Below are positions 12,457 through 59,164 of a stretch of DNA of 64,000 nucleotides, piece by piece. Below the pieces are notes generated by a model. That model had not been told where the DNA came from. It did not search any database and saw only the letters and a list, made by a program, of their open reading frames with translations. Position 1 is the first letter of the stretch. Every line of letters begins with the position of its first letter. The translations under genes and the position numbers were made by a program. Where the stretch lies: positions 19,825,946 through 19,889,945 of the forward strand of contig NC_049993.1 in the NCBI RefSeq assembly GCF_000003815.2, written 5' to 3'. The DNA comes from Branchiostoma floridae. Its lineage: Eukaryota > Chordata > Leptocardii > Amphioxiformes > Branchiostomatidae.

Positions 12457-13995
12457 TTAGAAAAGCATCCACCATTTCCCATCGGACTCCGGCTTGCTCT
12501 TGACGGGCCGGGCCTGCTTGGAGGACTCGTCGAAGGAGAAGATCTGGAAGGACAAGACAAAGATTCGTAAGAAAGTGTCTAACATTATCTTCACATATCG
12601 ACTGTTATTTGCCTCTTCTAGTATACTATAACATAACCATAATAGCTAATACACTGACGTTAGAAACTGGCCATTTCATGGATAGATGTACACAGTCAAA
12701 CCTGTTGTACTATTTGTAGCTACTTTTGGAGGCCCCATACATTTTCCCATTGACCCAAGCATTCAAATCCTGTTTATTGTGGTCACTTGCCTTACTATTC
12801 TATTATTTTTCACTTATTCTTTACCCATTTAACTGAACGTTCGTTGTTTGTTGGAATTTGCAACATAAAATGCTGTTACAAGTGAAAACTTTCTATCGTA
12901 ACAAGAGCAACAGCAACAAAAACTATAGCAACTATATGGAACTTCACAGTGAAAGTGAAATCGCCCAACATAACCACAGCAGCGGCAACAACAACAAAAA
13001 CAAACGGATCTCAACATTTACAGTGAAGAAATCTTAACTATAGCATCAGCATCCATAGCAACAATAACCATAACAACAATAACCATAGCAACAGTAACCA
13101 TAGCAACAGTGACTCACGGGGATGTCGACGCTGAAGCTGTCGTCGCACTTCCTGCAGACGGACCTGGGGGCGCCCCAGGTGTCCTGTACGCAGTCGCACA
13201 CCTGGCACGTGGCGGGGCGCACGGACTCGGACACGCGCCGGCTGTACACGTCCAGGAACTCCTTGTTGTTGATGGCGTTAGAGTCGAAGATGCAGCCCTG
13301 TGGGATTGAAATAATTCAAGATTAGCACTACATTTCCACGTGACAATAAAAACACATGAATGATATGCAATCTCCTTTTGTCGTTTAGTTCCTTTGCGTA
13401 GTGTCATCGTCCGGATAGACTGACGGAACAGCTACTCAAGCAACGGGATAGATTTGGGAAAGTTGGTACCTTGTATATCTAAATACCTGGAGGCCTAACC
13501 ATTATCGACGAACCCATGACAGAAATGTAGCGTATACAATAATGACAGGTTGTGAAATAGTGTATTAGAGGGTAAATATTCTTAAATGCAGGAATTCCTG
13601 TCTAAAAGAGTATGGAAAGTCAGCCACCATAACCAAAGTCACCGTAAAGGAATGACGGAAAGAGGGAGGGGAGAGAGGGAGGAAGGAAGGAAGGAAGGAA
13701 GGAAGGAAGGAAGGATGGATGGAAGGAAAGAAGGAAGGAATGAAGGAAAGGAGGAAGGAAAGAAGGGAGGAAGGAACTAGAGAAGGAAGGAAGAGACAAA
13801 GCAAGAGAGAACAGAAGGAAGGAGGGATGGAGGGAGAAAGGAAGGAATGGGGAATGGATGACGGAAAGATTACCTCGGTCTCCAGAGCCAGAGCGGAGCA
13901 CATGTCCTTAGGCGCCTTGACGTACTGCAGCAGGCTGGACTTGTCGAAGTCGCGGCTCACGTCCTTGCTGGTGAACACCTCGCGGCGGTCAAGAC
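12457..13995 (-). CDS. Lipid-transfer gene exons 54-56: Cys-rich C-terminal tail
   Basis: Exons are 13874-13995, 13118-13297 and 12457-12543. Exon 54 ends the vWA-like segment (SSLLQYVKAPKDMCSALALE). Exon 55 carries CQVCDCVQDTWGAPRSVCRKC, a CxxCxC...CxxC cluster likely to be disulphide-bonded in a secreted protein. The last exon encodes a basic, Trp-containing end (PESDGKWWMLF) before TAA. I recognise no named family for this tail. Confidence 0.8.
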
Positions 13996-16900
13996 CTGGG
14001 AAGGGGGGCGGAAACATCGTTTGATTAGCACTAATTACACAGCAAGACTTTCCTTCAAGCCATCTCATCAGTACTGAGAAAAGTCTACAAGCAAAGTGAT
14101 CCTAACTGTGTCAGATGGCAATTTCATCTTGGAGTGAACGATCTCTGGTTTTGGAACTGAAGTACCTCACTTCTCAATTCTGTTACTCAAGTACTACTTC
14201 TCTAAAGGGACAAAGTGTCTACGTCACACAAAAAAGGGGACCATGGGGGACCGCTATAAATTAGATCTGCTGGAAATTAGGCATACGTCATGCTTCTTAT
14301 CGTTTCAGAGGTCTACAGTTTTTTTTCTTAATCAACACGAAAATTTCAACACAGCACATGCGCAGGTCCAGGGTTGAAGCTGGTTCTCCAGACGCCGCCT
14401 AATAGTCGCCCTTACGAGGTACGAGCGGAAAACTGTCGATTCTTCCGTTTTTCGCTAATTACTAAAGGAGTTGCCAAAAAGTTGCCTAATTCTAATTACA
14501 ACTAATCCTTTGTGTAAACGTCCTGTTCTAACTTTGGCTAATCCTCAAGATAGTTCTGAAGACGCCTTACCGTAGATGGTGACCCTCTCGATGTCCTTGG
14601 TCTTCCTGAGACGGAAGCGGTGGTCCTTCAGCAGGTGCACGGTGATGTCACGCTCCTTCAGCATGCTGGAGATGGCCTTGTAGTCGCCCTGGGAGGGAGA
14701 AGGAAAACAGAATGCTCAAGAAGCGTTCCTGAAATTTCTTTTTTTTCTCTATCGTGACTGCTTTGTACATCCTAGACGATTGTTGCTGTATTTTCAATGT
14801 ATGGTAGGTAGACATGGGTATGTAGACAGAGCTATACTATTTGCAAAGTTTACTTTATAACACTGAAAATTGTAACGTAATAGATCGCACTGATGACGCC
14901 TCCCTGACAGAAACAGACCAAAGCTGAACAGTGTTGTATCAACTACGTTTCGGGAGTTCTGCTGGAGTCTTCATACAAGTGCACTTTCAGCCAAATCAGG
15001 CACCGCGTTATGCTTATTACTGAAACGTTTCCCCTTTCAGCGCGTCTCGCTTTACCTCTGGGAGGCTGGTACTTTGAATTATGTTTACACAAAGAGTCTA
15101 CCGATAACCAGACACGTGTATCAAATGCATACACTTTCTTATGGTTCTCGCAAATATCAAATGCGTTTTTCACGCATCTCTGTGCATCTACATTATATCT
15201 ATCTTGATCTCCGAACTTATTTTGTAACTATACATTCCGTAAGTGGGTTACACCTATGCTTACCTATGTCTATATCGTAGAACACCTGTATTTACCTGTG
15301 TCTATATCTTAGAACACCTGTATTTACCTGTGTCTCCTGGCATTCCTCAGAGCAGGACAGGATGACGATAGACTTGGCGGCGCCGGTGCGGAAGGGGTAG
15401 TCAGCGGCCATGCGCAGGGAGGAGAAGGCGTCGTTGTTCTGGCCCTCACCAAACTCCAGCGCCTCTACGCCGAGCACGAACTGGCGTGCGTCGTGGAACA
15501 TCTGGCCGGCGATGGTGTGGGTGTGGGAGGCGTCGTGGACGCCCTCACCGCCGTACCCGACCAGGGCGAAGCGGTTGTCCTTCATGCCTGGGCGGGAAGA
15601 GGTTAAAAATGAACAATTTAGCATGAAAAACTGTTGTTTCCGTCTCAGAAAAAGATACTATAAAGAAGGAAAAGCTTCCGTATCCAGCCATGCTGGGTAA
15701 AGTGGCCGAAAAGGGCGAAGCGGTTGTCCTTCATGCCTGAGGCGGGGAAAGGTAGACAATATGAACTAAATTTTCAATGAAAGCTTCAATTACGGACTTG
15801 ACAATTAGAGATAGAGTTAGAATAGGGCCAGGTAAATAACCAGGACTTAGATACTCAATACACAAAAAAGTGGGATTTAACACTAGCGATAAATACATCC
15901 AGTAAATCTATACCAACGCCGTGAATCGCCCCAGCAACCATTAGAAGATCTACCCAGTACATGTCATTATTGGTAAGTCCCAATTTTTGTGCAGTGTTAC
16001 AGTTAGATCTAGGTGCTACACAGTGGTGGGGCAACATCTCTTACCCTTGCGCTGCAGCTGAGTATCCAGATACTGCACCAAGTCGGTGAGAGCTGGGGCA
16101 CTCGGCGTTACGTTACGGTTACGGACCTTACAGTTACGGTGACAGAGCTGTGTAACCTACCCTTGCGTTGCGGCTGTGTGTCCAGATACTGCACCAAGTC
16201 GGTAAGCTGAGGCGCGTTTCACCGTTACAGTTACAGTTACGAACTTTACAGTTACAGTTACAGCAACAGAGCTGTGTAACCTACCCTCACAGTTACAGAT
16301 ATAGTTAAGGTGACCTACCCTTGCGCTGCAGCTGGGTATCCAGATACTGCACCAGGTCCGTCAGCTGGGGCGCGCGGCGGCGGTTGCAGCTCTTCTCCTC
16401 CACCACCAGCACGATGTCGGCGGTGTTGACCTTGCGGGTGTCGGTGATGCGGGTCTGCTCGCCCTCCGTGAACACGGAACCGTCGGGCTTCTGGCAAGTC
16501 ACTGAGAAAAAATATCAAGACATCTTTAGTTACAATCTTGAACGTACAAGTGTTGAACGTACGTCTCTCGCACGTCACTGGGGAAAATCAAGGCGTCTTT
16601 AGTTAAAATCTAAAGACAAGCCTAGAGAGTTTTAGTCTCTGGCACGTCGCTTGTGGAAAACATCAAGGCGTCCTAAGTTACAATCGTAAAGACTTTTAGA
16701 ATCTTAAAAACTTTTACAATCATAACACTGCGTAATCAGCAGTGTTGTGACAAGTCGCCGGAGAAAAATGAAGACATTTTGGTTATGCCAGAGGGAGACA
16801 TTGCCACTGTAAAAAATGATAGCATCGTACGATCCTCAGTCAACCATCGATCGAAGGCAGGGTTTTGGCATGCCTTTATTCAAATCCTTTGCTAGGAACA

Positions 16901-19900
16901 CCAAAACACGGGGCTTAACAGTACTAAATAAGGGCGACATGACCTTTTGCATTCGCTGGGCAAAAAATATAAGAAAACCACATACGACGCTACCGAAAAT
17001 CTTCTTGAAACTTCTTTTGATAATAGTACCCAAATAGGGGCTCGGTGTTACTAACAAGGGGTTCAGCGGTATTACACAAGAAAGAATTGACCTACCGCAC
17101 TTGCTGGGCATGTTGATGGACACGCCGGCCTGGCGACACTGCTCGATGTAGGCGGCGGTGACGTTACAGGGCAGGGTGTCGGGGCGAATGCTGTTCTGGT
17201 TATCGCACACGTCAGATTTGCACATGTCGTGGTACGGAGTCACGTCAACCTGGGGGGGGGGGGGGGGGAGGGGGAGGGGACAGGTAAATACAGGTGAGCA
17301 CAGGTGAGTACAGGTATGAGCAGGTATGTGGTTGTCGCACACGTCAGACTTGCACATGTCGTGGTACGGGGTCACGTCAACCTGGAGGCAGGTACATACA
17401 GGTGAGCACAGGTACTTACAGGTGGTCACGGGTGATGACAGGTGGGTACAGGTACGTGCACGTACCGGTAGGTATGTGGTTCTCACATCCGCCAGGCATC
17501 ACCCTTCGAGAGGAAACAGCTAAGATACCTAACTATACCATTTTACATGACATTGTGCAATACGTTTAACCACCGTGAAGAATCTCAGAATAAACGATTC
17601 ATCCATTACCTCACTGAGTCACTCACTCATTTATTCTTTTAGCTTCTTGACAGTAGCCTCCGAGAGATCTAATTCATTCATTCATTCATTCATCCATTCG
17701 TTCGTTTGTTCATTTATCATCCATTCTTTTGTTCATTCAGTTCTTACATTCTGATACGTACAATAATGAATCAGCGCCTTAGAGATCTTTCATTCATTCG
17801 TTCCCACATTCATTCACTCATTCAGGTTTAAGATTTCTATACGTACGATGTTGAAGCAGCGCCTGAGAGGGGAGCTCTGATCCTTGAACATCTTTCCGCA
17901 GATGCCCTCTGCGCGGCTGTCCTGGAGCCCTGGTGCGCATGCGCTGGCCTTGTTCCTGCTCCTGCGGCACGACTTGCTCACGTCCCAGCTGTTGGTGAAC
18001 TGCAGCAGGTCCTGGGGACGAGAAGGATGACACGTCAGAGGTGGCACATGGGAACGAGAATGAAAGGTTAGAGATTGTTCAGGGCTATAAAAATGAAAGG
18101 TTAGAGATTGTTCAGGGCTATAAAACCTCTTTGTTATAAAAGTCAGTTGATCATGGAAAAATAAGGTCAGCACTTTAACCCATTGGGTATTTGAACAGTT
18201 GGCTGGGTAAGTGCCTTGTAAGTTGTATCATAAAAAACATGAACAATGCGAGATGATGTAGTGACTAGTAATCCTAAAGATGCATTACAATTTTTGCGGC
18301 CCGTTTTTTTGTCTTACACAAAAGAATGAACAACTATGACAAATAAAATAAGATAACCAATGACCGAACCAATGTTTTTGAATCTAAAACCAAGAACTCA
18401 TGGCATTATCTTTTTACCCTTAGATAATTTGTTCTCATCGTACTTTTCATTACAAGGAGACTTACGAAACTCTACGGTCCTTGAGGCGCCTTACCTGTGT
18501 CTTGGTGCCGTCGGAAGTGGTGAACTCGTCGTTCTTCTCGTTGTTGTAGATGCCGAACAGGCCGGCGGTCTTGCCGAAGTACCAGCCGGACACCTGCACG
18601 TTGCAGAGGTCATGGGTCAGGTCACAGGTCACGGCCACGCCGTTGGAGTTGGTGACGACGATCCTCTGTCCGTCGCGCCTGATGACGGTGTTCTTGTCCT
18701 GCAGGGGCAGCTCGGTGTCCTGGTTCTCGCGCTTCATCTGGCGAGGGGGAGGGGGGCAACGTGTTAGTAAAACATTGACATCATCATCAGACAATACCGA
18801 GCGTTAAAGTCAGGATCTACAAGTTTCCTATCTATTTCGTCAGGGCTAGCGTCCTCAACTTTGTACTTGCATTGTCAACTCCAAAAAGAAAGGAAGAAAA
18901 AAATGATCGCAGTTTCATAGAGTTAACTATAAAAATAAGTATATTTTTTTCTTGTATGTAGTACTGCAACCCGCACAACAGTTATGTCATGGTGCCTCAT
19001 GCATATCCTGCCTTTAACTCATTTATTTGTCACTTTCTGTCAGAGACTCCTGTCAAAGACTGCGGAACTGCATCCATACGTAGACCTGTTCATTGATCAA
19101 TCAAATCTATCTACTCGTTTAACTGCATTCACATGCATATCTATCTATATCTATCTGTATACCCATTACTTAATTACTCCATCTATAAATTAACAGAAAC
19201 TCACCACGCCGGATGGGAAGATCTCGTAGGTCTTCTCGTCGATGACAACGACCAGAGACTTCTTCTGCAGGCTGGAGCCGGAGTGGTAGTTCAACACCAC
19301 GCTGAAGTTCCCGTCGATCATGTCGCGGGCCAGCACGTAGCTGCAGTCCCCGCCGAACTCGAAGTGCTTCTTGTCGAAGGTGAGGAAATGCTGCTTGCCG
19401 GAGATCAGGGCGTCAGCTGGGGAGGGAGCATGTAAACGTAGGTTAGATCATTGACATTGAACCATCAAGTTCATCAGCAGACATGTACACGTAGCTACAG
19501 TCTCAGCCAAACTCGAAGTGCTTCTTGTCGAAGGTGAGGAAATGCTGCTTGCCGGAGATCAGGGCGTCAGCTGGGGAGGGAGAGTTAAACATAGGTCAGA
19601 TGACTCAGATCATTGAACCATCATGTCTGTCAGCAGCCATGTATCTGAAGTCCACACCGAACTCGAAGTGCTTCTTGTCGATCGAAAGTCAGGAAGTCCT
19701 CCAGGAAGAAGCATGGAAAGGTAGGGAAAGATAAAAACATTCATAACAAACACATTAGGACCCACTCATGGAACCGGGACGGGTGATGCTACCAACTTCC
19801 AACCACCTCAGAGGCATAGCGTAAGCTACTCATCAACATGAGCTGAGCAATCGGGACCTCAGTTGTTCTGAAGAGAGGGCGAACCAAAAATTTCATTTCT

Positions 19901-22900
19901 CGGAATGAAGGAATCGAAACATACCCATGAAATGAGGGACCATGTTGCTGCTTGAGGGCTTGTAGCAGTAGATAGTATTCCAGATGGAATTGTTTATTTA
20001 TTTGTTTGTTTGTTTATTTGTTTGTTTATTTTAAGGTTTGAGAAAATGAACCGAGACGTACCCATGAAAGGAGGGACCATGTTGCTGCTTGAGGGCTTGT
20101 AGCGGTAGATGGTGTCCCAGATGGAGTAGTTTGTTTGTTTGTTTATCTTAAGGTTTGAGAAAATGAACCGAGGCGTACCCATGAAAGGAGGAACCATGTT
20201 GCTGCTGGAAGGCTTGTAGCGGTAGACGGTGTCCCAGATAGAGTAGTTCTGCATGGGCTTGATCTGGTTCTCCCACATGTCCACCATCTGGGCGTACGGC
20301 TTCGGCATCGACTCAAAGCTGCAGAGACAAGGTTCAAATAAAGACAGGTGTTAGACATGCTGCATGCATGCAGGCTGACTGACTCCCTCTTCTAGCACCA
20401 TCTTCCATTGATTGAAAGCTGCCGAGGCAATGTTCAAACGTATAAGTCTGGCTCTAGTGAAATAAGAGAAATGTTTTTGTTTTTCACTGGCCGTGGTTCT
20501 ACTACGGGTGCAAACAGAATCTTGACCTGAGACAAAATGTTACTGTCACTTTTTGACAGAAAGGAGCGATCACTTCTAGTTTGAAAGCGTACGAGTATCC
20601 AGAGATAAGTCAGCTCCCTTACTCTGCAACAGAACTTTGACTTCAAACAAATGTTACAATGATATCGCTTTTGGACAGACAGGATGATTTTTTCTAGTTT
20701 GAATGCGTATCCAGAGAAATAAGACAGTATGGCCCAAGGTCCCTTACCTGTGCCACTTGAAGGGCAGGTGCAGGTCGGCGGCGATGCGTCCCTGGACCAG
20801 GTTGAGCTGGTGGATCTTAGTCTTCATCATGGGCAGGGGCAGGACTCCCATGGACCTCTGCATGTTCTTCTTCATCTGACTCATCACCTCGGCACCGACC
20901 TGGCGGATGTACAAGATCTAGTTAGTACTTGTGTATGGGGTACAAAAGTACACATGCATGTTTGTATGGCCTTTTACGCTAGAGGAAGAACTCTTCTGGG
21001 CCTTTGCTAGTTCTTAGTCTTGTGACACATCATTTTGGTACCTGTAGGACGTACAAGATCCACAGTTGGTACCATTACATAGGTACAAAAGTATGTATGA
21101 TTGGCCGCAGTGCAAGGTTCTAAGAGCCACTCAAATGTTTTGGGTTACTGTACTGGATTCTGATTGTGATTGATCCTGCAGCAGGATATGCCGATCAAGG
21201 ATTGGAACACATAGCCACATGCGATCCTGCAGAGGAGGACAATCTTTCAAAGGATCTTCGAAAGCGAAGCCTTATAAGAAACAGCCGTCATCACACTAGT
21301 ACTGTAACAGTAGAAGCCAGTTAATTGCACACCGGATAATCGCACACTTCTGTTAATTGCACGATACCCAAATCTCATGATGTGCGGTCCAGCTTAATAA
21401 CTTCGCTTTGTTGCAATATTCGGATAATTGCACGAAATACACTGGCAAATGGGGTGTGCAATTAAGCGGCTTCCACTGTATACAAAAAAAAAGTTTTTTC
21501 GTACCTCCTTGGCGATGCTCTTCATGACGTGCATGGACTTCTGGACCTCGTTCCTGTCGAGCATCTCGCGCTGGCTGTCGGTCAGGGAGGAGCGCAGGCT
21601 GTAGGACATGTCCGCCATCTTGTCGTCCCACCTTCCGTACAGGTCGGACATCACGTTCTGCTCGATGTAGGTCTTCAGGTCTTCCATGGGCTCTGCAGTA
21701 ACAGATGTGTTCGTGATTTATTAAAATCGCTATTTTAGCGTCACTTTATCATCATTCAAGCATTATTCTAGCACTGTTCTTGATTGATTTTAGCGCCATT
21801 CTGGCGCATCATTCTAGAGTCACTCTAGCATCACGGGTTTTCCGTCTGCTCTGATATGACACTGTCATATGAAGAATGTTTGTTAGCACGTTTCTTTAAT
21901 CTGTATGCACATAGGAAGAGACTTCCATCTCAGACTCTAATTGCATGCTGGTAGTTGGGACGTTTTTTTCTTCAAACATCTGAGATTAACATGCAAAGTA
22001 AACTGGTGCGACGTAAAGACTTGACTTACTCATGATCTTCTCCATGGCGCTCCTGTATGTCTGCCTGACGGTGTCGGCGGCGGTGTTCAGGGCGGACATC
22101 AGCCTCTTGGAGACTCCGGACATGCCGTACTCTCTCCTCAGCTGCTCCAGGGTGGGGGCGGGGGTGCTCTTACGGTCGCCGAGAATAGCAGGGCGCAGGA
22201 CCTGCAGGAAGCTAAGGGAAGTAACAGTTTCTTTAGTAGACTGTTCATGAGAGTTACGCTGTTGAGTTTGTTCAGTTTATTGTGATACCCTTTAGCTCAT
22301 TGAGCTTGCAGGACTCATTAAAAAACACACACAGTATATACAAGTAGATGGACAGATATCATATACTCAATACCATGTTGTTGATAACAATATATGAATT
22401 CACATTTATAACACACGCCAAATAACAGGTGAGCACTGACGAATAACAATGGATGCTACCTGAAATGTCTGACCGTTTCCAAAATCATATCCAGTTGCAT
22501 GAGTAAATGCTTTTTGGTGTATTCTAAGGTATAACATTCATCGACATTTCATCAAGAACAGTTTTTATATATCAGGAATATATCGAGCAATCGGGTCTTC
22601 TTTTCTAAAGACGACTAGAGTACTGGCGACCATGTCGTGGTCAGAGCAGTAACTCTTCTTTTGTTGGAACACGCCTTCCCTACAATAGTAATAACGGTAG
22701 TTCACCTTTATCCGTGGGGCAACCTATATCCGTTGTTTCTAAAAAATAAGGGTATTTAGGGATATCAAGTCAACGGACGATAGTTTCAAATTGCATTTTT
22801 TTTCAAATGTTAAAGTTTGTAACAACTATCCGCCGAATTAATATCCAAAAATGCCCTGTTTTTTAGAACAACGGATATAGGTTACCCCACGGATAAAGGT

Positions 22901-25900: not shown

Positions 25901-28900
25901 CGGCGCCACTTGAGCTGCTGGGTGAGCTCGATGTCCTGGCTCAGCTGGCCGAAGCAGGTCACGGGCACCTGGAACGGGTGCTCCAGACGCAGAACCTGCA
26001 ACGGGTTTCACTATGATTTAGACTATGATTTAGATTATGATTTAGACTATGATTTGGACTATAATCATGATTTTGACTATGATTTAGATTATGATTTAGA
26101 CTATGATTTGGACTATAATTATGATTTTGACTATGATTTAGATTATGATTTAGACTATGATTTGGACTATAATTATGATTTTGACTATGATTTAGATTAT
26201 GATTTAAACTATGATTTGGACTATGATTATGATTATGACTCGACTATGATTTCGACATGATTATGACTCGAGTATGATTTCGACGACGATGTTGACTATG
26301 ATTTGGACAAACGTTAATTTCGACTATGACTAGGCTTCGGATTTGAACGACGAATTGGGTCATGATTCGAACTTGATGTTGACTATCATTTGTTTTATCA
26401 CAATTTTTTTTCGTTATTATCAATGATTAATGATCATTAATAATCAATATTGTATGCTGATTTTCTGTAACAGTATGTACGTATACGTGGCTTGTCTTAT
26501 TTCATTTTCAACACAGGTTCCCACTGCAAAGAAGTGTCAACCATGGTAATCATGGATAAAAACGACAGTAATAAATAAAAGTAATAACTCACGATCTCGT
26601 GGTCCTGCTGGCGGTTGTTGCTCCTGTCGCGGTAGGTCCCCTGGACGGACATCTTCTGGCCGTCCCACTCAAAGTCAACCTGGGCACACAAACATTGAGA
26701 TTAACATGAAAGTTCATCAGTGTTGGTACCATCCGTAATGAAGTACTTCAATATAAAATAGAGATTATTGCAACAACATTTGTACTAACATTTATTGCAA
26801 CAAAACATACATGGATTTTGTGCAACGAAGTGAAATGGTAAATACTTTTAAAAAGGCGATAATGGTGTTGTTAACAGCAACAACACAAAAACGAGAAAGC
26901 ATTTCATCGTCGCCGTCCTGGTGGTTAAATCTGACAAAAAGGTAATGGGAATCAACTCAAGACAGACCTTGGATCCCCTCTTGGGCTGTCCCTTCTTCTC
27001 GGTCTCGACCTGGCCCTGCAGGGTCATCTTCTTGGGGGAGTAGTCGAAGGGGTGCTCCAGGTTGGTGTAGACCCAGTGCTTGTTCATCTGGCGGTCGCTC
27101 TGGTCCACGTAGCCGTACCCGCCGGTCATGGTGTTGGTCTCGTCCCAGGTGGCGGTCCACTTGTAGTCCAGGTTCTTCAGCTGGGGTATGAAGAATTCAG
27201 ACCTTTATTGTAACTTTGTAGCTGGCTAAGAACAGCAACAGGTAACAGTAAACTAGAGCTAAGGAAACACTGAATAAGTGTTGGTCTCGTCCCAGGTGGC
27301 GGTCCACTTGTAGTTCAGGTTCTTCAGCTAGGGTATAATGAATACAGACCCTTATTGTAGATTTGTACTAGCATACTCCAACTGGCTAATTACAGCTAAA
27401 GAAAGCTAAACGTAAAATAGAGCTAATAACAATACACTGAATAGGTGTTGGTATCGTCCCAGATGTTTGTCAACTTGTAGTCCAGGTTCTTCAGCTAGGG
27501 GTAGAAGGAATTCAGATCTTCATTGCAACTTTGTACTCTAACTGGCTAAGCTTGTAGTAGTATAATGAAATACAGTTACAGTAGAACAAGCATCAACCAA
27601 AACAACCATTGAATATAATTTTGATTATAATAATAACAATAACTTAATTGCACAACAATTGTACAGGGTACAAAGCATGGCATCTACTGATGCATAACTT
27701 TTCCTCATAAGTTTTATGAGGCTAATCTACTTGATACAAGGGTGCGTGCATGGATGAAAATGGTCTTTACAATCATTGGAGGGAATTTTAGTGTCTAGAC
27801 ATTCTTTAGTATATTTTCCTATGTATACCATTCAGGGGTTCTCACGTGTCATAATGTATTCAAATTTGCTATCAAAGTTCATTGAGGTAAATATATAAGT
27901 GATAAAATTGCACAAGATGTGATGACGCACTGCTACCATGACCACATAAACAGCTGACGTACTTGGTTGTTGAGTGTAAAATTGTACAAGAACTGATGAC
28001 GTACTGATACCATGAACACATAAAGATCTGACGTACCTGGTTGTTGAGTGTGTCCTGCTGGTACTGGTCAGAGAACTTGAGCTTGTTGAAGGTGTTGGTG
28101 AAGGGCTGACTGATGGTGTAGGAGGAGTCGTAACGGTAGGTGTTACCCAGGGTCTTGTTGTTGAAGTTAACCTACAGCAAGATGAATAATAAATTTATCT
28201 ATTAGCTTCATCTGTTCAAAAGCTTGGCAATTCAGAGCGAGAATTGGGCTGTACAGCTAGCCTCAATAGCAGGCTCTCCGGGCCTTTCTTTTGTCCTTTT
28301 TTTTTTGCTCATAATAAATTGGCCATTTTTTTTGTAGAGGGGACGGGTCGGCGGCACAAACGACCCAGTACAAAAAGAAATGGCCAGCTTAAGTGTATAC
28401 TGAGCAAAAAAAGACGAAAAACGGCCCAGTCAGAGCCTGCAATGGAGACGACTGTACAGCCACCACAGAACTCACGCAACCGAACCAACACAGCTGAATG
28501 ATTATGGATGACAAAGCGGTCAACTGACGGTCGAAAAACATTTTTTTTTTACATACGCTTGACGTCATCCTTGTCAAATACATCCAGTAGATTTATACTT
28601 GCGCCGTGCATCGCCTAAGCAACCACGTGCACTGCCATATTGACTCTGTGTAGGTCGTCCGGGAAGGCTAACGTCACATTTCCACATCAGGGCCCGGCCG
28701 GGCTATTAGTAGAGACGAAAAATAGAAATGTAGCCTCTTACCTCGAGCTTGACGCCGTCCTTCTTGTCCCAGTTGGTGTTGAAGGTGGCCTGCACGGTGC
28801 GGTAGGTCTGCTTCAGGTCGTAGGAGATGTCCATGTCGCGGAAGGGCACGTAGGAGGAGAAGGGGTGGCGGAAGGACAGGGAGCCCTCCACGGTCCTCTC

Positions 28901-41000: not shown

Positions 41001-44000
41001 CAATTCAAGATTGTGTTACGTTTCCTGTGAACTGAATGCGCCAACCTTAGTGCATAAACTGCCGGCTGTCAAAGATGCAAGTTAGAAAACGTAACATTCT
41101 TTTCTCTGCTTGGAGATAAGCCTTTGTAAGAAGAGTTGGTGATCACGTGACTTACTGGACGTTGACGATCTCCATCTTGTCACGTGGCATGTTGAGCTTG
41201 ACCTCCAGGTCGCTGCCCTTCTTGAGGATGACCTTGCCGTCGGCGAAGGTGGAGGAGTGGAGGGTGGTGACCATCTTCATCCCGCAGCGGGCCACGTGCG
41301 CGTCGATACCCATCTCGCTGGAGATCTCCACGGCGGCGCTGGGAAGGGAAGGAAAGATCGTTGTGAAAACCCTGCTGTACACATATACAGTACATTTGAA
41401 GCATGATGTCGCGATGGGCAAAAGCAGCCTCCAATAGAAACATACTGTGTGACCGCTCACTTTTTAGTGAAATCGCTTTTGGGAAGAGCAGTGTAACATT
41501 CGGAAAAGTGTCTTGCTCGTCGCACACGCGCGTACACTTGCAAAGTTAGACAATGTTATGATCTTTCCTGTCACCATCCATACCACTAAGATAACATGGG
41601 AAATTTGGCTAGTCTCTCAGTCAAAACGGTTATTCATGTCTAATTACTGAAAAGTACCTCGAAGTGAGCACTAAAAATGGCACGTCCTGTACCTTGATAT
41701 ACATGGACACAACAATGTATTCATCACCTTTACAATATTGCAGAACGCCTTAACTGGGCATGACCTGCCCCTCGATGTGCATGCCGCGCAGGCTGAAGCC
41801 CATGTTGCGTACGTCCACTGGTGTCATTACTGATCTGTACATGGTGTCAGCGGTGGGATCTGACTATAAACCTTTGCCACAGCCTTACCTGGGCATGACC
41901 TGTCCCTCGATGTGCATGCTGCGCGGGCTGAAGCCCATGTTGCGCACGTCCATCTTGCCGGAGACCTTGACGTGAGTGGTGGCGGTCCCGTTTATGGCGA
42001 GGCGGAGCGGCAGACCGGTGCTGGTGGGGATGGTGTGGGTGGAGTCCAGGAACATCGTGCTCTTGTCACCTGCGGGAACAACAGAAAACGTTACAGGCAG
42101 TGTTAAAAACCTAGTATAAAAGAAAGTACGGTTCTCAGTGGCAAATGTTGAGAGGTACATATTGAATACACCAAATCCGTGTGTTTTGTAGTCGCTGCAT
42201 TGTACACATATATAACTTTATTGCACAACAATTGTACGAGGTACAAAGTATGGCATCTACATAACTACAGTGGTATAACACATATAACGTAGTCAAACTC
42301 CATTCGTATAGCTTTGCAAGATGATTGTGTTCCCGACTATAAGTCAGTTTTACTTTAAATGTCCAATTGCCCTTAGCTACTCTAGATCTATTCCAAAAAA
42401 AAAGGAAACCATTGTCACATCTATATAAGCAATGAGTAATTCAGTTTGAATCGATGCATTCCAAGATTTGGGCTTTCCCAGAGCTAAATTATGACGTGGA
42501 AGTCATGTCGCTGATTACTTGTTGAATCTTTACGTTTGCAAGAGCGCTCAAAAACATTAGTTTTCACCAACACTTAAACTCTATTTTCTTTTCTCTAACA
42601 ATTTTCTCATTGGCCTAATAGTCCTGCTGCTTAGCCTGCTTCATGCTCATCTCCATGACGTCATGCCTTTGTTTTGATGACAGCACGAACACATACTATG
42701 AGCTTGCTTGAGTGTGTTGTCTTGTAAATTTTGCAGTAAAAGAAAATTACTGACCTCATAGTCCTGCTGCTTGGCGAGCTTCATCATGATCTCCATGACG
42801 TTCCAGCCCTGCTTCTGCGCCTTGACGTCCAGACCCTTGAAGTCTCCGTACATCACCTCGTCTCCGTACATGCGCACGTAGTAGGAGCCCTCGGGCTGGT
42901 TCTCCTGCTTAGCGTTGAACTAGGAGGGAGAAGAAGAAAGATGTGTTATGGTCAAGTTTGAACTTAGACCTTGCGTCTTCCAAGTAGGTGTTTATTCTAC
43001 GCCTAGTCCCCGTACATGCGCACGTAGTAGTAGCCCTTGGGAATGTCCTCCTGCTTAGCGTTAGACAGCGGAGGGATAATAAAATGTGTCATGGTCCAGT
43101 CTTAACTTAGACCATGTTTTCCATAGTAACTCCTCTAGTTTTCAATTCTTATCTACATTTCTCAGTACTTGGCATTAAACTGGAGGGGGGTGGGTTAAAA
43201 GGTATATGTGTCTGCCAGTCGAGAGCATCGATATCGCTTCGTTCTTCCTTTAATATTTGTCTAGGAAGACCCCCTCCTTCGTTGTCTGTCTAGTCTGCCT
43301 AGTCTACATTTCCTACTACTGTATATTGTCTACTAAAATGTCTTACATATGTGGTAACATAAAAGACTTAAGTCTTAAGAAATGTACCTTGCGGTGGACC
43401 TCCTCCAGTTTGTTCTCCTTCAAGACGGAGCGCTTCTCCTTGGTCTTCAGCAGGTGCAAGACGTTGTTCTCGGGGAAGTAGCCCTGGTGGCCGAAGAAAG
43501 ACTCGGCCAGGTAGCTCATGCCCTCGATACGGCCTCCAATCTGCGTGGTAAGATAAAGAGTATATATTTGTAACATGATCTGTCTTTACATACTTACACG
43601 GGCTCTGGGCTTTGAGTAATCTTGTGGTCTATTGTATTTCCAAGGAAATTGGAAGAATTGGATGAAAATCACGGACAGAAGCGTTGCTTGCCACCGCAGG
43701 TTACTTCTTCCGTCCATAGCTAGTATGTGATGCTGACTGTAAACAAAGCTAGCAGCTGTATGGAAATGCGAGTTGCCGTACGGCATGTTTATCTTCTGAT
43801 TGTTTGAAGAGCAAAATTCTAACGTTTATTACTAGTTTTGAGCACAAGAAGACCCCACATCCAACATGTGTTATACCAAGATTGTATCGTCCATTGCTAG
43901 TTTTGGATGTACCGAACAACTGAGTTGACGGTAAGAAAACGTCATCTGACCTCCAGCATGTTCATCTCTGTGCCGAAGACGATGGCGGTGAGGTTGATGT

Positions 44001-47000
44001 ATAAGCCTTTAATCTGCTGTATACAAGTTATTAAAGCTCACTGCTAGTTTTGGATGTACCGAACAACTGAGTTGACTGTAAGAAAAGTCAGCTAACCTCC
44101 AGCATGTTCATCTCGGTGCCGAAGACGATGGCGGTGAGGTTAAGACGGGCGCTGCGGGGCAGGAAGGAGGTGTCGGAGAACAGCACGTCGGCCTGGGCCT
44201 CGCCGCCCATGTTCCAGCGCTCTGTAACAGCAACAGGGGTTAGACAACAGTGACCCTAGTCCTCAAAGAAACCCTAACCCCAGTCCTAACCCCTACCCCC
44301 TAAACCTTAACCCTTACCCGAAGTCTGGGCCTAGTCCATATGCTCCAACACTCTATATAACAACAGGGTAGCTCACAGATAACACTAACACTAACACTAA
44401 CACTAACTGTAACCCAGATCGTAATGATGATGAAACAGGTTCACTACAAACATCACCAACCATTTGGCCACCGAGAACAAGATTCCCTTTTCACAAAAAC
44501 ATGCGTACTCCTTTTGGTCTAAAAAATAGCTGGTTTACGCTTTAGTTTGCAATTCCGAAAACCTGTACGTTACCAAATCAGAGGCTTTGCCTACTTCGGC
44601 AGCTGTAGTTGTATGTTACGATGGAAATGGAGAACAAATCTTAGCCTGTACCTAGGTATTCATGAAAGCAACTGGCTCTAACTAACAAAAAAGAGAGACA
44701 CAAATATCGCTCACCGGAGAAGACGGATCCCTCCCAGGCGGAGGAGAACTTCCTCTTGTCTCCGGTGAACTTCTTCTCCAGCTCGGAGTTGCGCAGGATA
44801 TCGTTCACGGTGTTGTGCCACTCATCGTCGCGCTTCAGAACCTGCTGGAGGTGGGACCACACGTAGGAACCGACTGTACGGGACAGGGAACAGAACGTTA
44901 GTTACGATTGATATCTCACTGCCAGGGGCTCATTGGGTCTCCTTCCCGAGAGCTTGTGGCCATTCACCTCTTACGCTTTCTTAGAGTCCCTCTTACGAGC
45001 TAATAGTATAGTAGTTTGGTAACCAGAATTGATGTCTTTAAGAATCGTTGTAGTCACATGTAGATGAAGGCTTTCGTTAGAGAGCTTTGTACAACCACTA
45101 GAGAAATATCTATAAGACGTATACGTAGATGCGACACACGTCATTCGATGTAACACCGACTGATTCGTTGTGCCTGCTTTACCACCTTTACCACCGCCTT
45201 CGTGAACAGGTCTTCGCGGCAATGTTGCCGACGCAACGCACTTTCACACAGGACTGAAGACTAGACTGCGTCTTAGATAGCCAGAATTTCATGATGAAAG
45301 ACAGTGACGTACCCTGAGAAGACTCCTCGGAGTCCATGGCGCGCTTGACGATCTGGAAGAAGTCGTGAGACGGGCAGAGCGCGGCCTGGATGTAGGCGGC
45401 GATACGGACCTCACTGTCCTCCGCCTTGTTCAGGAAGGTGTTGGTCAAGGCAGTGCGCTGTGTAAGGAACGATTCAAGAAAGTCAGTAAGACGTTTGCAT
45501 TATCAAGTCAATAATTAACGTGTTGGTCAGGGCGGTGCGCTGTTTAAGGAACGATTCAAGAAAGTCGGTAAGACGTTTGCTTTCTTATGTCAATTATCAA
45601 CGTGTTGGTAGCGCTGTTTCAGGAAGGATTCAAGAAAAGACTTTCGCATTGTCAAGTGAATCGTTAAGGTAAGGGCGATGCGCTGTTAAAGGAATGATTA
45701 AAGGGAATCTTCATGCAGTGTAAGTTAGAATGCAATAACACACCTTGTGAATAGATATTCTGACAATGTTTGTTCTTAGATTTTTGGCATGTGTTTTACG
45801 TTTGCTGAGATACAAGTAGGTGACTGTGTAAATCGAGTGTCTTCTGTGGTTGCTTTCAGTTTTAAGGGATTCAAAACTGGAGCTGCTCAACATCGTTGAC
45901 ATACTGTATCTGAATTAGATTCTGCTGTCCTTACAATTTCTAGGCAAACACGTTTCCATCATTAATAGTTTACAAGACTGTTCCGTGTCTTTACTACGTG
46001 TTAACTGTTTTCTAAATGTTCACGAGACCAGCTACTCACGCTGACGGAGCAGGGCAGGCGGCGGAAGGCCTCCATGGCGGCGCGGCGGACGGGGATGGGG
46101 TTGGCCTCGGTCAGCACGCACTGGGACAGCGTGGGGGCGGCGGACACGGCCTGGCCGGCGTTACCGATGGCCTTCAGGGACATCATCATCTGGGGAGGAC
46201 GGAGAAACAGGCAGTTGTGATACATGTTTTATTAAGACTTCTTAAGACTAACTATAAAATAGAATAGACAGTCATGATACATATGTTAACTTCGTTAGAC
46301 TTACTATGATTCATGAACCTGTGACTTCAGACACAAGACATAACTGGCCATTAAGTCTTAAACCGTTGTGACTGCTGTTCTTATCACAACGCATCCAAGA
46401 AGTTCTTATCAACAGTTCTGTTTATGAGTTTTTATGTTTTTTAATCTTTGTGTTCTGCTTATTAGTTTGTTTTCCTTCTCTTTGCATGAATTCTTAGAGA
46501 ATGACGCAGTGATTGTAAGTAGTTTGATCTAAAAATAATCGGATTTATCTGCCGTCTACTTTGTTCAATGAAGCAAACATATTTCCATCTATTCGTTTAC
46601 TCATTCATTCAGGCTGTCGTTCATTCCCTTACTCATTTATCCATTCATTCACGAATTCTTACCTTCTCCTCCTCCCTGTCGGAGAAAGTGTGGCAGCGCT
46701 CTCCCAGGTTCCTCTCGAACACGGCCAGCGCGTTCCGGATCTCGGGGCGCTGCGCGCAGTCGGACTCGGCCTGGCAGTACTTGTGGATCAGGGCGGACAG
46801 GGACAGGAAGGCGGAGCGGCGGACCTCGCGACCCTCACACAGGGGCTACGGAGAAAACAACGATATTAGTAAACGGGACGGGAGGCGCCATAGGTTACTC
46901 GGCCTGGCAGTACTTGTGGATCAGGGCGGACAGGGACAGGAAAGTGGAGCGGCGGACCTCACGACCTTCACACAGGGGCTGCGGAGAAAACAACATTAGT

Positions 47001-50000
47001 AAACGGGACGGGAGGCGCCATAGGTTACTCGGCCTGGCAGTACTTGTGGATCAGGGCGGACAGGGACAGGAAGGCGGAGCGGCGGACCTCACGACCTTCA
47101 CACAGGGGCTGCGGAGAAAACAACGATATTAGTAAACGGGACGGGAGGCGCCATAGGTTACTCGGCCTGGCAGTACTTGTGGATCAGGGCGGACAGGGAC
47201 AGGAAGGCGGAGCGGCGGACCTCACGACCTTCACACAGGGGCTGCGGAGAAAACAACGATATTAGTAAACGGGACGGGAGGCGCCATAGGTTACTCGGCC
47301 TGGCAGTACTTGTGGATCAGGGCGGACAGGGACAGGTAGGCGGAGCGGCGGACCTCGCGACCTTCACACAGGGGCTACGGAGGAGAAACAGACATTAGTG
47401 AACATGTGAACGGGACGGGAGGCGCCACAGGTTACTCGGCATGGCAGTACTTGTGGATCAGGGCGGACAGGGACACATTACAAAGGACTGTGTATTAGGC
47501 CCCAACATCTCCAACCAGGACCTTCTAGAAGCTAGCGAGAAGGCCGTGGCCTGACTGCAGTACTGGCACGGAACGATATGATGATGAGGGCGGACAGGGA
47601 CAGGAAAGCGGAGCGGCGGACCTCGCGGCCTTCACACAGGGGCTAAAAGGAGGAGGAAAACATCACTAGTAAACGAGACGGGAGGCGATACAGTCTTCCA
47701 GGCACATGGCAAATGCAATGGAAAAGTAGGCAGAGCGGCTATATGCTAGGGAGTGAAAACAAACATCACGGTTAACACATAAACGGGACGAAAGGCAACA
47801 CAGGCTTTCAGGCATCTCGGCCCTCTCTTCTTAAAAAAAAAATCTTTGAATATGCAGCAATTGTCATTCTAGAATGAAAGCGTACTTCTATGCCATGTGT
47901 TAAATACCAGTGTTCTACATTTCTTTACCATCACTATCAGGGTATGCGAAAAAAGTACCTGAAGTTCCGCGATCATCTGCGGGGTGGGGTTCTTGGCGAA
48001 GACCTGAGAGGCCAGCCAGGCGTCGGCCTGCTCGCCGGTCACCTCGCCCTTCATGATGTACTCCTTCACCAGGCGCGCGGACGCCTCGTTGTGCACCAGG
48101 GGGATGGCGTCCATGGCGAACTTCCTACGGAAAGGCAAACGAAAATTTTCGTCAGAAAAGTGATTCACTGGTTTAAATTAAGCGTTCAAGACGAACTTTT
48201 TAAAGTGGTCCCAGCCCTCCCGCAGGTCGGATCACCCTCTGGCCTTCGGCCGTCGGGCGATCAGGCTTCCCGCGGTCGGGCTGGTACTTTGGGCGATACG
48301 GAATACACCGTGTTGTATTCTATATGAATAGAAAGAAAATACATTTAAAATTTGCATCCATCTTTAACCCATCAAAATGGCGGAGGTTACATTTGAGTCA
48401 CGTGAGTGTTAAACCCCTACGTCATACGTACTTCATCTTTTCGGGGTCGCTGTTGCAGATTCCCTCAGCCCTGGCGACAGTTTCTAACATTATAACTTTG
48501 CATCTATCTTTAACCCATCAAAATGGCGGAGGTAACATTTGAGTCACGTGAGTGTTAAAGCCCTACGTCATACGTACTTCATCTTCTCGGGGTCGGTGTT
48601 GCAGATGCCCTCAGCCCTGGCGACGTACTGTTTTTACTTTTAGCATGAGAACTTTGCATGTATGTTTAACCACCAACATGGGTAATGACGTCATGGTCAC
48701 GTGAGTGCAAAATCCCTAGGTCATACGTACTTCATCTTCTCGGGGTCGCTGTTGCAGATGCCCTCAGCCCTGGCGACGGCGGAGCGCATCTCCTGCACGT
48801 TCAGGTCGCGCATCTGGTACACCAGGCGGCTGAAGAGTGCCGGGGTCTCGGGGCGCACTCCCTCGGCGGTCTGGGCGCACAGGTCCCGCAGGGTCTGCTC
48901 CACGCGCCCGCTGGCGGACTCGGAGTCCTTAGAGTCGTGCTGGAAGCGCAGGTCGGAGCGGGTGAAGCCCAGACCGGACACTGGGGAGGGAAGGGTGTAC
49001 AGATTAGCCAATTTGTCATCACAACGATGAAAAAGACTCAGAAACAAGATAACAACTTAGAGATACTATAAAAGGTAGCTATAAGTTATAACTAGTCCAG
49101 TAGCCTTTTTGAGACCGTAGGGTTGTTACTCCGGTATGTCTAGGGCACAGTCTTGGGAGGAGGATTCCATCTCTCTCCTTCTACTGCCTTTTATCTCACC
49201 AACCGTAGTGGAGTAATAAAACAGAAGTCGTGTTAAGCCAGAAATGCCAGGATTTAAACCTGTGACCCCTTGATCTCGAGTCCAACGTTACAACTTAGAC
49301 ATAAGACATTGTGATGAGATTTAGGGTGAGAGAAGAGAGAAAAGGCCTTAAGAAAAACTTACGGAGAGAAGACTTGGTGCGTGGCCTCTGCGGGGTCAGC
49401 TGCAGTGTCTGTGTGCTGCGCACGGTGGCGCCGTTCTGCCCGTGAGAGAAGGGCCTCAGCAGATGACGCTCTGTACACGTCACAGACTCGATGACGCTGT
49501 TGCTGTCGATAGTGTGTGTGCATTCCTGGTTGCTGTCCAAAATGTGGGGGCGCTCCTGGAATAAAAACAGGAAAAAAAACGTTTTTAAAACTTTGATGTA
49601 TCCGATTTCTCGACAGGTCATTTTGCACTGAGGACGGGGGCCGGTACCGACTTTCTGGAGCCTTTGCAGTCACGTGTCTCTAAGGCCACGTGACCTAAGG
49701 ATTGGGGCATTCTCATCGACGAAGGCTGAAGCGACAGCCGAAACTCTGCCTGGTCTGATATCTTCAGTGTGAACTTATCTTATTGTGGCAGAATGTTAGC
49801 CTGACTCCTAGTCTCATACATGAGGCCATCTAACCATATTTGCATGTCATGTTATATCACTACAGAGCGTACTGTCTGTTTGCTGTAAAAATTGTCCTAT
49901 AGTACGGCAGAACTTATTACTTGCTCTAGAAGTTAGCCTATAAATAGGTATAATGATACAGAACTTACCGTGTGCTTGCTGTAGAAGTTAGCCTATAATA

Positions 50001-53000
50001 CTACAGAACTTAATGTGTGCTTAATGTTAATGTAGAAGTTGGCCTACAACACTACCGAACTTACCGTCTGCTGGCTGTAGAAGTTGGCGCGGATGCCGGT
50101 CTCGCTGCCGAGGCGACGGTCGGAGCAGCGCTGGAAGGTGCGGGTGCGCTTGTACTGGGTGGTCAGGCCGCGCTCGTCAACGGGCTCGTACTGGACATCG
50201 CAGGCGCCGGTAACGTCGGTCTGGGCAGGGAAGGAAGTTTAGGCAACGTTAGTGTGGTACATGTTTCAGCGCTGGAAGGTACGGGTGCGCTTGTACTGGG
50301 TGCTGAGGCCGCGCTCGTCCACGGGTTCGTACTGAACATCGCAGGCGCCGGTAACGTCGGTCTGGAGAGGGAAGGAAGTTTAGGCTACGTTAGTGTGGCA
50401 CGTTTGTGAGCGAAGGTTGTGCAAAAAGTCGGAGCAGCGCTGGAAGGTGCGGGTGCGCTTGTACTGGGTGCTGAGGCCGCGCTCGTCTACGGGCTCGTAC
50501 TGAACATCGCAGGCGCCGGTAACGTCGGTCTGGGCAGGGAAGGAAGTTTAGGCTACGTTAGGGTAGTACACATTTGAGCGAAGGTTGCGCGAAAGCCGCA
50601 GACGCTGGTTACCTCGTCTTGAGATCACGAGGGAAAACGGGAGAGTTTGAGGACTGTATAAATCCTTTGTTCAAAGACCTACAATGTACCTATCTGATTG
50701 TCTCCAAGCAGACCCTACCCGTAGGTCCATGTGCGNNNNNNNNNNNNNNNNNNNNNNNNNNNNNNNNNNNNNNNNNNNNNNNNNNNNNNNNNNNNNNNNN
50801 NNNNNNNNNNNNNNNNNNNNNNNNNNNNNNNNNNNAAATAGTATCAAAGCTGGCAAGGCACCAGGTGCCCGTTTGCACTCCCTTAGCCGGCTATCTCCCT
50901 TTGGCCGGCTATACCTCCTTTGCCAGCTTTGATATTGTTTCCAAGGCACCGTAGGGTCTGCTTGGAGACTACCTATCTGACGAGGAAAATCAAAATTTTT
51001 TTGATGGACACTGGCATGTGACAATGTTGCAACCACAGCGCGCGCACATAGACGAGGTGTGAATACAGACTAAGCAGAGGTTCGGCTCTGGCTGTTTTGG
51101 ACGTATTTTGAGACGTTTTTGTCGGGGTTTCTATTTTGTACCGTTTCCCGTTTTCTATCATGGTTTGGGCGCGGACATGATAGAAAACGGTACAAAATAG
51201 AAACCCCGACAAAAGGCGCCTAACAATACGTAAAAAATGTCGGAGCTGAACCTCTGCTTGGAGAGTATCAAAGGTATGAAGTTACTACTGTAATCTACCT
51301 CTACATTGGAGAATACATTGTCATGAAAGAAAGACCATATAAGCTCATCAGTCTTATCTCACAACGAGTGTAATCTATCTTCTTTCCAGGTTCAGGGTCT
51401 CAGGGCGACTTGTTTATAATCATAAGTGAGTTTGTGGAAGAAATCGGCGCTTTGTTCTCAATCAAAAGTTAGATTTCTTTTGATTGTTTTGTATGTCTTT
51501 CAAGTGGTAAACTTTGATTTGTGACACCATCATTTAACTGACCTTTCGAACGACTAAAAGAACGCTTCAAACCGGGCTTAAGCTACCGTATATCTGCTTG
51601 GTGGCCAACGGTCTGGTGGTTTATAACCCATGCAACGTGAGGCCTTCCCATGTGCGACACCTCTTATGTTAATCTACTTCAACATTGGAGAATACATTGT
51701 CATGAAAGAAAGACCAGGTAAGCTCAACAGTCTCATCTCACAAGGAGCTAAATCTTTATCTTCTTCTCCACTCTTGTTTTAGGTTCAGGGTCTCTGACGA
51801 CTCGTTGTCATAAATGAATTCGTAGAAGAAATTGACGCTTCATTTTCAAGGTAAAGTTAATCATTTTTTTTTTCTTCTTCTTCTCGATTGTTCTGTGTAT
51901 GCCTTTTGAGTGGCAACCTTTTCTGCGTGACGTCTACCTTGATTGACGTCGACCAAAAGGACCGGGCTTAAGCTACATATCTGCTTTGTGGTCTAGTGGT
52001 TTATAACCAATGCAACGTGAGAGCTTCACACGTGCCTAGCCCGACCCTAACCCTGCCTTGTTACAGCCACGTGTCATACACAGCTGACAGAAAATCGATC
52101 TCTCAAAGCTTCTGAGCTAAGGTTTGTTTGCCAATCTTTGCAGCCCAAGACATTGCAATCTTACGTCTTAACGATTTGTCTTAGGTTTCTTTCGTCGTTG
52201 TATGCTTAATTTGAGCATAATTGACCAGTGGAAAACGTTTAACGAGTTGTTGAGATTGTACGTTTTTACTGACTCTACAAGGGTCCATTTTATAATCACC
52301 TTTTCTTATCGGCGTTTTCTTTGAGGGAAGATAAAGGTTCTTGTCTTAACCTTTGTCCTTTTGTCAAGCAGATAAAAACTTGCTAACACTTCTGTGTGGC
52401 GTTTTCGCTGACCGAAATTCCTCTGTTGTCAGGGCAAAAATGATGACCAACCACCCGAATGTGTGAGTAGCAAACAACGTAGTCATCGATAACTTACTTA
52501 TTTGTTCCAATTCTGATGATTAAAAGGATTTGAGGTTTGGACAGCAAACCTGACGATCGATACTGTGAGTATTTGTTCGGCTAGGCGTCGGTTTTTGATG
52601 ACTAAGTCTTTTTGCAGCAGCCAAAGTTCGCTGGTTATGTCCACACAATGTTATACAAATGGTTAACTAGAAAAATAGCTACTTATAAAATTCGGAAAAT
52701 TTTGGAGGGACTTAAGAAAAAAAACATCTCACAAGTAGTAGCGGAAAATTAAGGGTAAAACTTTTTAAAAAGGAATTCTGGGATCGAACGTTTATACACA
52801 ACATTAGGGTAAGTGTATGATAATACTAAAAGCAAAGACAAAAGAGCTACAAACTTTTCCAATGTCTCTTTTGAAAGTTTAGATTCAGAGCGACTTAAAC
52901 CGTGCAGTATTCAAATCATTGGGCAAAGTCACCGCAACATTAGTTACGGAAAATCTTGCCTTAATTAAAGTGAAGCAAAGGTTACTCCATCCAATCACTA

Positions 53001-54574
53001 CAAAGGTCATCCTCACTAATTAGAACAGACGTTCCTCGGAACACGTCAGGCTGTCCCCCACGCGGACAATGCCATTCTACCGTAGCCATGGTTACAATCA
53101 TCTGATTGGATAAGCTAACCTCAAAGGCCATCTGGGACAAATGTGCCCGAACACGTTTTTTTCTACCGTCCGCCACCTTTGTTTGCCGACCTTGTGTGCT
53201 GTCGCCAAGGACACTATCTGCCGTGTGGTCAGTTGATGGACCGGAGTTGGCAAAAGGTCAGATGAGCAATCTCAGTTTGGTACTGTGATTGCGCAATCTG
53301 GAAGCAATTGTTCTTTTGTCTTTGTCTTTCCGCACATAAAAGTTACATGAGGTCAAGGATATACCGCATACTGCTTAAGGACACTGTTAGGGATGTCTGA
53401 ACCAAAAACGATTTGACCAGAAAACCACAGAGTTTGACAAGTTTGGCAGTCTTCAGTCTACCAGAGTTGAACTCTGACTGACTGCTAGCGCTATGTCCCA
53501 AAATGTGGGTCATTTTCCATGAGGAAGGCCAAAGTCTGATAGTGCATGGCTATTTCGGTGTGTGTTGCTAACGTTAGAGACTTAGAGAAACTTTGTGTAT
53601 TGAGAAACGTATATTAAACGTATATCACATAAAACTTCCGTCCCATTGATATTAACTATCCACTCACACAAACAAACAAGTAAACAACAAACAGTAAAAA
53701 TGCGACCTCCTCCACGTCGGTGCACTTCTGGCTGAGGAAAGAGGTCTGCATGGCAGACATCTCTCCCCGCTTGAGGTTCACTATCAACCCTCACAAACAC
53801 ACAAATAAACAAACAGCTAAACAAACAAACAAACAAACAAACAAACAAACCTCCTCCATGTCGGTGCGCCTCTGGCTGAGGAAAGAGTTCTGCAGGGCAG
53901 ACAGCACTCCCCGCTTGATGTTGACCACCCAGGTCTCATCTTCGGCAGACGGGCAGATCTCAGGGATAACGCCATCCTAAATACAACATAATGAGATTGC
54001 AAGAATTATTTTACTGATAATGAGAAATGAGAAAGATTTATTTGTAAAACGTGAAAGCCCATGGGCTGAATTGTGTAATACATTACAAGGGAGAGTGCTC
54101 ACATGTCGTCGATATCAAGATAACAATTACAACAGCTTATGTTCGTCATTAAAACAACAACCACCAAACACGCGTTTTGATTGTTGACCTGTGAAAAGTC
54201 TATGTACCTTCAGTTTGATTCTAGACTGTTTACAGACTATAACGAGGATATCCTACTACGTTCGTCGAATCCCTCTTGGAAAGTAGAGCAAAGAAATGGA
54301 CGGACTAAGGGAGGTGGAAGAAGTGGGGAAAGAGAGATGAGGAGGGAGGATAATGTGAAGAGAGAAAGGTTAAGGCTCTATCATTAAGAGGGAGATCATG
54401 ATGAGATAGGGAGGATAAGCAGGAAAGATGGAGATCAGGAGAGGGGGAGATGAAGAGAGAGAGAGAGAGAGAGAGATGGAGGGTGGAGGGAAAATCGGGA
54501 TGTTTTTGAGACGATACGTCCCTTACCTAGAAAGAGAATCGGAGATGAAAAGAGAGGGACGGCGTTAGAGCAAG

Positions 54575-54659
<85 letters not shown>

Positions 54660-59164: not shown

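Follow-up and report, generated by a model that had tools for sequence, protein, structure and literature searches.

Results

Host gene and exon model

The window analyzed here, a stretch of 64,000 nucleotides from Branchiostoma floridae, contains a single minus-strand gene, for which our splice and codon model gives an ATG at 59164 and a stop codon ending at 12457. Pfam matches, which came from two of the three pieces searched, comprise Vitellogenin_N (5e-93), Vit_open_b-sht (2.7e-65), DUF1081, the LOC400499 family, VWD, and C8; the product is predicted to be a large lipid transfer protein of the apoB/apolipophorin/vitellogenin type. The model was self-trained. Its first version, with 123 exons, was replaced by a 66-exon version with a higher price per exon, from which ten predicted exons (partial copies or frame filler) and then the prediction at 50389-50529 were removed, leaving 55 exons; exon 2 was lengthened to 55253. 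The reading frame is broken between the exons that flank an assembly gap, and therefore one exon is probably hidden there. Our exon numbers differ from those of an earlier sequence-only reading of this DNA, and the correspondence between the two sets was inferred by order.

12457..59164, minus strand: large lipid transfer protein gene, apoB/apolipophorin/vitellogenin type, as predicted by the splice/codon model and Pfam
35817..36172, no strand: assembly gap (N) of 356 bases; the reading frame breaks nearby

A 37-bp minisatellite of about 12 copies, 98 percent alike, lies directly upstream of the gene (59773-60223), and a mariner-like remnant with a Mos1-type transposase helix-turn-helix fragment (HTH_48, 3e-8) is found at 60662-61000. 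The 13-base motif CTCCAAGCAGAGG occurs eight times in the window at no more than one mismatch; four occurrences are exact (51251, 59438, 63793, and 63864), against 0.05 expected, and four are near matches. Those at 63793 and 63864 are on opposite strands, like the two ends of a single element, and the motif may represent the terminal repeats of a family of dispersed elements.

Copies of exon edges

The sequence-only reading had described many exons of this gene as having extra copies of their acceptor or donor portion in the adjoining intron. Self-BLAST and a scan of exon edges bore this out, with copies at 23 of the 108 edges, distributed over 19 exons:

54387..54548, minus strand: copy of the exon 3 donor edge (54597-54744); spacing 196 bp, GT intact
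53670..53781, minus strand: copy of the exon 4 donor edge (53819-53925); spacing 144 bp
50281..50594, minus strand: two copies of the exon 7 acceptor edge (50119-50280), at 141 and 309 bp; contains exon 5 of the earlier reading
49861..49992, minus strand: copy of the exon 7 donor edge (50033-50088); spacing 96 bp
48341..48625, minus strand: two copies of the exon 9 donor edge (48638-48778), at 153 and 299 bp
46897..47693, minus strand: array with five scored copies of the exon 18 acceptor edge (46764-46896); unit about 133 bp
45517..45703, minus strand: copies of the exon 20 acceptor edge (45435-45515); unit 82 bp
43892..43995, minus strand: copy of the exon 22 donor edge (44039-44141); spacing 147 bp
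43002..43128, minus strand: copy of the exon 24 acceptor edge (42856-42986); spacing 146 bp, AG lost
42611..42661, minus strand: copy of the exon 24 tail to donor (42751-42801); spacing 140 bp, GT lost
41747..41817, minus strand: copy of the exon 25 donor edge (41882-41952); spacing 135 bp, GT lost
40445..40502, minus strand: copy of the exon 27 donor edge (40505-40562); spacing 60 bp
35414..35446, minus strand: copy of the exon 36 acceptor edge (35310-35343); spacing 104 bp
27903..27976, minus strand: copy of the exon 44 donor edge (27977-28050); spacing 74-75 bp, absent from the earlier list
27281..27537, minus strand: two copies of the exon 45 acceptor edge (27134-27280), at 147 and 314 bp
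20748..20899, minus strand: exon 54; the upstream intron contains a weak copy (score 53) of its acceptor edge
19908..20131, minus strand: two copies of the exon 55 donor edge (20134-20248), at 117 and 254 bp
19488..19695, minus strand: copies of the exon 56 acceptor edge (19334-19470), at 154 and 304 bp
17329..17383, minus strand: copy of the exon 60 acceptor edge (17197-17251); spacing 132 bp, AG intact
16566..16611, minus strand: copy of the exon 61 acceptor edge (16490-16538); spacing 76 bp, weak (score 49)
16042..16216, minus strand: two copies of the exon 61 donor edge (16310-16374), at 158 and 274 bp; GT at exact spacing
15706..15782, minus strand: copy of the exon 62 acceptor edge (15557-15628); spacing 149 bp
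15267..15297, minus strand: copy of the exon 62 donor edge (15299-15329); spacing 32 bp, 2 exon bases only

Once short-period repeats had been masked, comparison of the window with itself by BLAST yielded 60 pairs of direct repeats, of which 55 are separated by less than 3 kb. Pairs at offsets below 600 bp, counted from alignments of at least 30 bp, group into 29 clusters, 25 of which lie within the gene; an exon edge is touched by 20 of these 25, or by 18 under a stricter overlap rule. When all edges were scanned at a score of at least 50 and with at least 8 exon bases, a local copy was found at 21 of the 108, and two further edges have copies below that rule. We analyzed 22 hand-picked edge copies from 18 exons in detail; their spacing from the exon ranges from 32 to 196 bp. 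Both boundary types are affected: 12 donors and 10 acceptors were analyzed, and one further acceptor, that of exon 54, surfaced only in the all-edge scan and lies outside the 22. No edge or intron anchor had a match in the distant flanks at score 40, so the edge repeats are not a chance product.

Sixteen exons had been named firmly in the earlier reading. Fifteen of them (6, 8, 10, 12, 14, 16, 17, 19, 27, 36, 46, 47, 50, 51, and 52 in its own numbering) stood; the remaining one, its exon 5 (50389-50529), fails as a host exon, being a partial duplicate of the acceptor portion of the exon that follows. Its exon 38, named with less assurance, had no copy scoring at least 40 in the edge scan and gave anchor-test scores of 38 and 30. 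Copies at its exons 3, 4, 35, and, weakly, 45 had been missed. A 12/54-bp intronic minisatellite (26010-26391) lies beside that exon 38, directly upstream of the exon ending at 25995.

Density of local duplications

The four C15 lipoprotein-type gene spans contain 67 clusters in 128.7 kb (0.52 per kb), against 22 in the 135.3 kb of remaining sequence compared (0.16 per kb), and are thus 3.2-fold denser in local duplications; the remaining sequence consists of the window flanks and what was left of the fetched blocks, three of which also have lipoprotein-type matches, and it includes the C5 block, which has two strong exons only and was excluded as a gene. These counts support the very high rate of local duplication that had been offered as one of two causes of the frequent edge copies, and it is mainly because of this high rate in the C15 genes that so many were seen.

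A scan of other genes of the same genome had also been proposed, and its outcome was divided. The other gene spans were chosen because of their Vitellogenin_N matches; exons scoring at least 10 were used for cluster tests and at least 12 for edge copies, and copies with at least 8 exon bases were kept. Three sister spans have a similar density (0.45 to 0.62 per kb), whereas two are lower (0.23 and 0.10 per kb), and the edge preference in these genes is slight. Under one rule for all, 21 of 108 edges have a copy here versus 31 of 294 in four other blocks (Fisher P 0.03). In one C6 gene of 25 strong exons we counted just one cluster, which lies away from the exon edges. More large lipoprotein-type genes, with a similar local-duplication density, are clustered about 0.4 Mb away (G000:C15:20205001-20335000, L013-L023).

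Geometry and unit length

In the 22 copies the geometry is the one that had been stated, with one break in the exon and the other in the intron. The further statement that divergence tends to grow with distance is weakly true: the farther copy is less similar to the exon in four of six two-copy arrays and more similar in two, and in the exon 18 array it is copy 1 that has diverged further from the exon than copies 2 and 3 have.

Unit lengths of 130 to 158 bp were found in 13 of the 20 edge clusters of this gene (scan P 0.003 to 0.07, by window and fitted curve), versus 5 of 28 edge clusters in the other gene spans (Fisher P 0.002 between the sets). A nucleosome-sized unit, with a peak at about 146 bp, was considered and dropped because the peak was not replicated in the other gene spans. 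The exon part of the copies is short, with a mean of 46 bp here and 37 bp in other genes (KS against a uniform distribution over 0 to 140, P 0.004 here); this may reflect selection, or simply the ends of the alignments.

Preference for exon edges

Duplications in this gene clearly favor exon edges. A rotation null (2000 rotations) gave 12.2 ± 2.3 edge hits versus the 20 seen (P 0.0005), and a second rotation run, with slightly different edges, gave a mean of 12.3 (P 0.002). Under a tolerated-placement null, in which the full exon is kept, 8.3 edge clusters are expected in this gene, or 10.4 at 1.47-fold ascertainment (P about 1e-4), a calculation that hinges on unit lengths, entered by hand for this gene, and on our own exon calls. 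Ascertainment by exon conservation, the other cause that had been offered, is real but small, with divergences of 0.078 in exon parts and 0.114 in intron parts putting it at about 1.5-fold; even a 3-fold effect gives 14.7 edge clusters, not 20 (P 0.02). Since edge overlap here is above chance beyond exon conservation, random placement is not the whole story in this gene.

Elsewhere the preference is less marked. Of the 47 clusters in the five other gene spans, 28 touch an edge, where rotation gives 24.7 (P 0.17) and no span alone falls below P 0.2; tolerated placement predicts 16.8 (P 0.0005), rising to 20.8 when ascertainment is set at 1.47-fold (P 0.02). The anchor test found a local copy at score 40 for 17 of 101 edge anchors, 141 of 807 intron anchors, 4 of 155 anchors in exon interiors, and 35 of 503 intergenic anchors. 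On their face the equal raw rates for edges and introns are against an edge preference, although the intron anchors include the edge copies themselves. Because the rotation excess over the five spans is small and these anchor rates are equal, we conclude that the edge preference is weak or gene-dependent.

These results bear on the reading in which exon-intron boundaries are true duplication hotspots (through chromatin, R-loops, or replication stalling), beyond being tolerated targets. The excess in this gene over rotation, tolerated placement, and both levels of ascertainment argues for it, as does the excess over tolerated and ascertained placement in the other genes; the almost complete lack of a rotation excess in the five other spans argues against it, and the tolerated-placement null leans on hand-entered unit lengths and our own exon calls. 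We regard hotspots of this kind as possible but unlikely. It is slightly more doubtful that the exon edges of some lancelet genes are genuine hotspots and that splicing there became unusually good at picking the inner site; were this so, the genome would keep making identical competing splice sites, a natural experiment in splice-site choice.

Decay of the copies and their splice sites

Divergence from the exon, taken over the 22 copies, is 0.054 at codon positions 1 and 2, 0.127 at position 3, and 0.114 in the intron parts; the exon parts overall are 0.078 divergent. For an exon held by selection and a copy drifting freely, intron divergence is expected to be twice that at positions 1 and 2. 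The ratio found was 2.1 (1.5-3.1) in the 22 copies and 2.2 (1.7-2.8) with 31 copies from other genes included. With codon positions 1 and 2 at half the intron divergence, the copies look to be drifting near-neutrally, and this drift provides a rough clock for dating them. Pooled position 3 is 3.1 (2.3-4.2) times as divergent as positions 1 and 2, and 3.9 times in the other genes alone; the pooled excess over a factor of two is unpredicted by simple copy drift. Rapid mutation at third positions rich in GC is our guess at the cause; alternatively, some copies may be under weak constraint.

Of the 22 copies here, 19 retain their splice dinucleotide, as do 25 of 31 elsewhere; the pooled 44 of 53 is near or slightly below the drift expectation of 0.89-0.91 (P 0.05-0.12 for so few). 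A splice site lies within 8 bp of its expected place in 20 of the 22 copies, and 18 of these 20, if used as exon extensions, would shift the frame and/or add a stop; when the exon 24 acceptor and exon 25 donor, whose own sites are lost, are set aside, 16 of 18 copy sites are frame-shifting or stop-adding. The exon 60 acceptor counts among the copies without a located site; the wrong spacing was used there, and its AG is intact. In nine of the 22, the copy site equals or surpasses the real site in score; the mean difference is -2.15.

Some copies might be real alternative or extra coding exons: the gene finder scored several of them positively as exons (for example 50389-50529), and divergence at position 3 exceeds the expectation of simple drift. 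However, extending the exon to the copy site would disrupt the frame or introduce a stop in 18 of 20 cases, and positions 1 and 2 diverge at half the intron rate, not far less. Extra exons are therefore a very improbable reading.

The earlier suggestion that the copies may serve as decoy splice sites holds insofar as most of them retain an intact site. In addition, 9 of the 22 sites score no lower than the real one, and use of most would cause a frameshift or a stop, as could suit decoys with a function in adjusting splicing or in sending misspliced transcripts to decay. Intact sites are, however, no commoner than drift predicts, and if anything rarer, and divergence is close to neutral. Boundary-spanning tandem duplications have been reported in B. 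floridae as amphioxus "mirages," and for those of Adh3 and the globins regular splicing was reported (PMC3087553). A role as decoys seems highly improbable to us; judged by their sequence, the copies look like silent debris, which splicing would ignore.

Globin loci and the quality of the assembly

Among nine globin loci in the same assembly, four have local duplications, and two of these span an exon edge: one locus (L037) has a 157-bp duplication over a donor, and another (L041) has 150-bp repeats over an acceptor. The assembly thus carries duplications of published size in globin genes. The unit lengths match those of the published globin mirages BflGb9 (157 bp) and BflGb6 (150-160 bp) (PMC3087553), a match made by length that ties the window to B. 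floridae. In the globin loci L036 (1076-1390) and L040 (1751-1947), tandem duplications of 119 and 116 bp, respectively, lie beside the matched exon, apparently off its edge.

The lancelet is highly heterozygous, which favors the view, put forward earlier as the main alternative, that haplotype misassembly set two alleles in tandem. One published mirage was, moreover, aberrantly assembled in an older draft (PMC3087553). Yet the BLAST identity of the edge pairs ranges from about 74 to 94.5 percent, with no single allelic value, the spacing is short, the copies are partial and stand up to five in a row, and two globin loci of this assembly have the published unit lengths; given the wide divergence range and those globin duplications, misassembly is unsupported and is the least probable of the readings considered.

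Discussion

We consider it very probable that the edge copies are amphioxus mirages, that is, frequent short tandem duplications that are tolerated and leave silent outer copies. Short tandem duplications of about 30 to 200 bp would occur at a high rate along the gene, presumably through slippage, unequal exchange, or the repair of breaks. Where one break falls in the exon and the other in the intron, the duplication would leave an outer partial copy carrying its own splice site, and it would be tolerated because the full exon survives. The spliceosome would ignore such copies, as has been published for other mirages (PMC3087553), probably because recognition is poor when an exon is truncated and lacks a proper partner site. 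The copies most likely have no function of their own, and they may occasionally seed new splice sites or introns.

This one gene offers over 20 instances of a splice site that has been copied, together with its surroundings, beside the original. Because copy and original differ mainly in the exon sequence behind them, RNA-seq would reveal the choice between near-identical sites, and the same pairs would show how often duplication seeds new sites or introns.

The kind of duplication found here has already been described, as amphioxus mirages, and this gene is a rich example of it. The published globin duplications are backed by trace reads and RT-PCR (PMC3087553), and a troponin C mirage has been reported, with PGBD5 as a similar case (PMC3902484). 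Among the matches listed in a literature search, we recognized no earlier count of mirages over a whole gene. What is added here is such a count in one gene, a measured near-neutral decay, and a nucleosome-sized unit that fails in other genes. The copies resemble the mirages of Adh3, troponin C, and the globins in being boundary-spanning duplications that affect donors as well as acceptors, in having a similar unit size, and in that many carry AG/GT signals; they differ in that many, at 23 edges of 19 exons, occur within one gene. Variation in length among haplotypes or within the soma also counts among the traits of mirages, and the present data come from one assembly. Intron gain by tandem genomic duplication, as reported in fly and potato (PMC2891723, PMC4974935), likewise involves a signal-carrying duplication inside a gene, whereas the copies described here lie within pre-existing introns, with no new intron shown. 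Ordinary intronic minisatellites also form multi-unit tandem arrays in introns, but the units here are mostly longer and have a coding edge within them.
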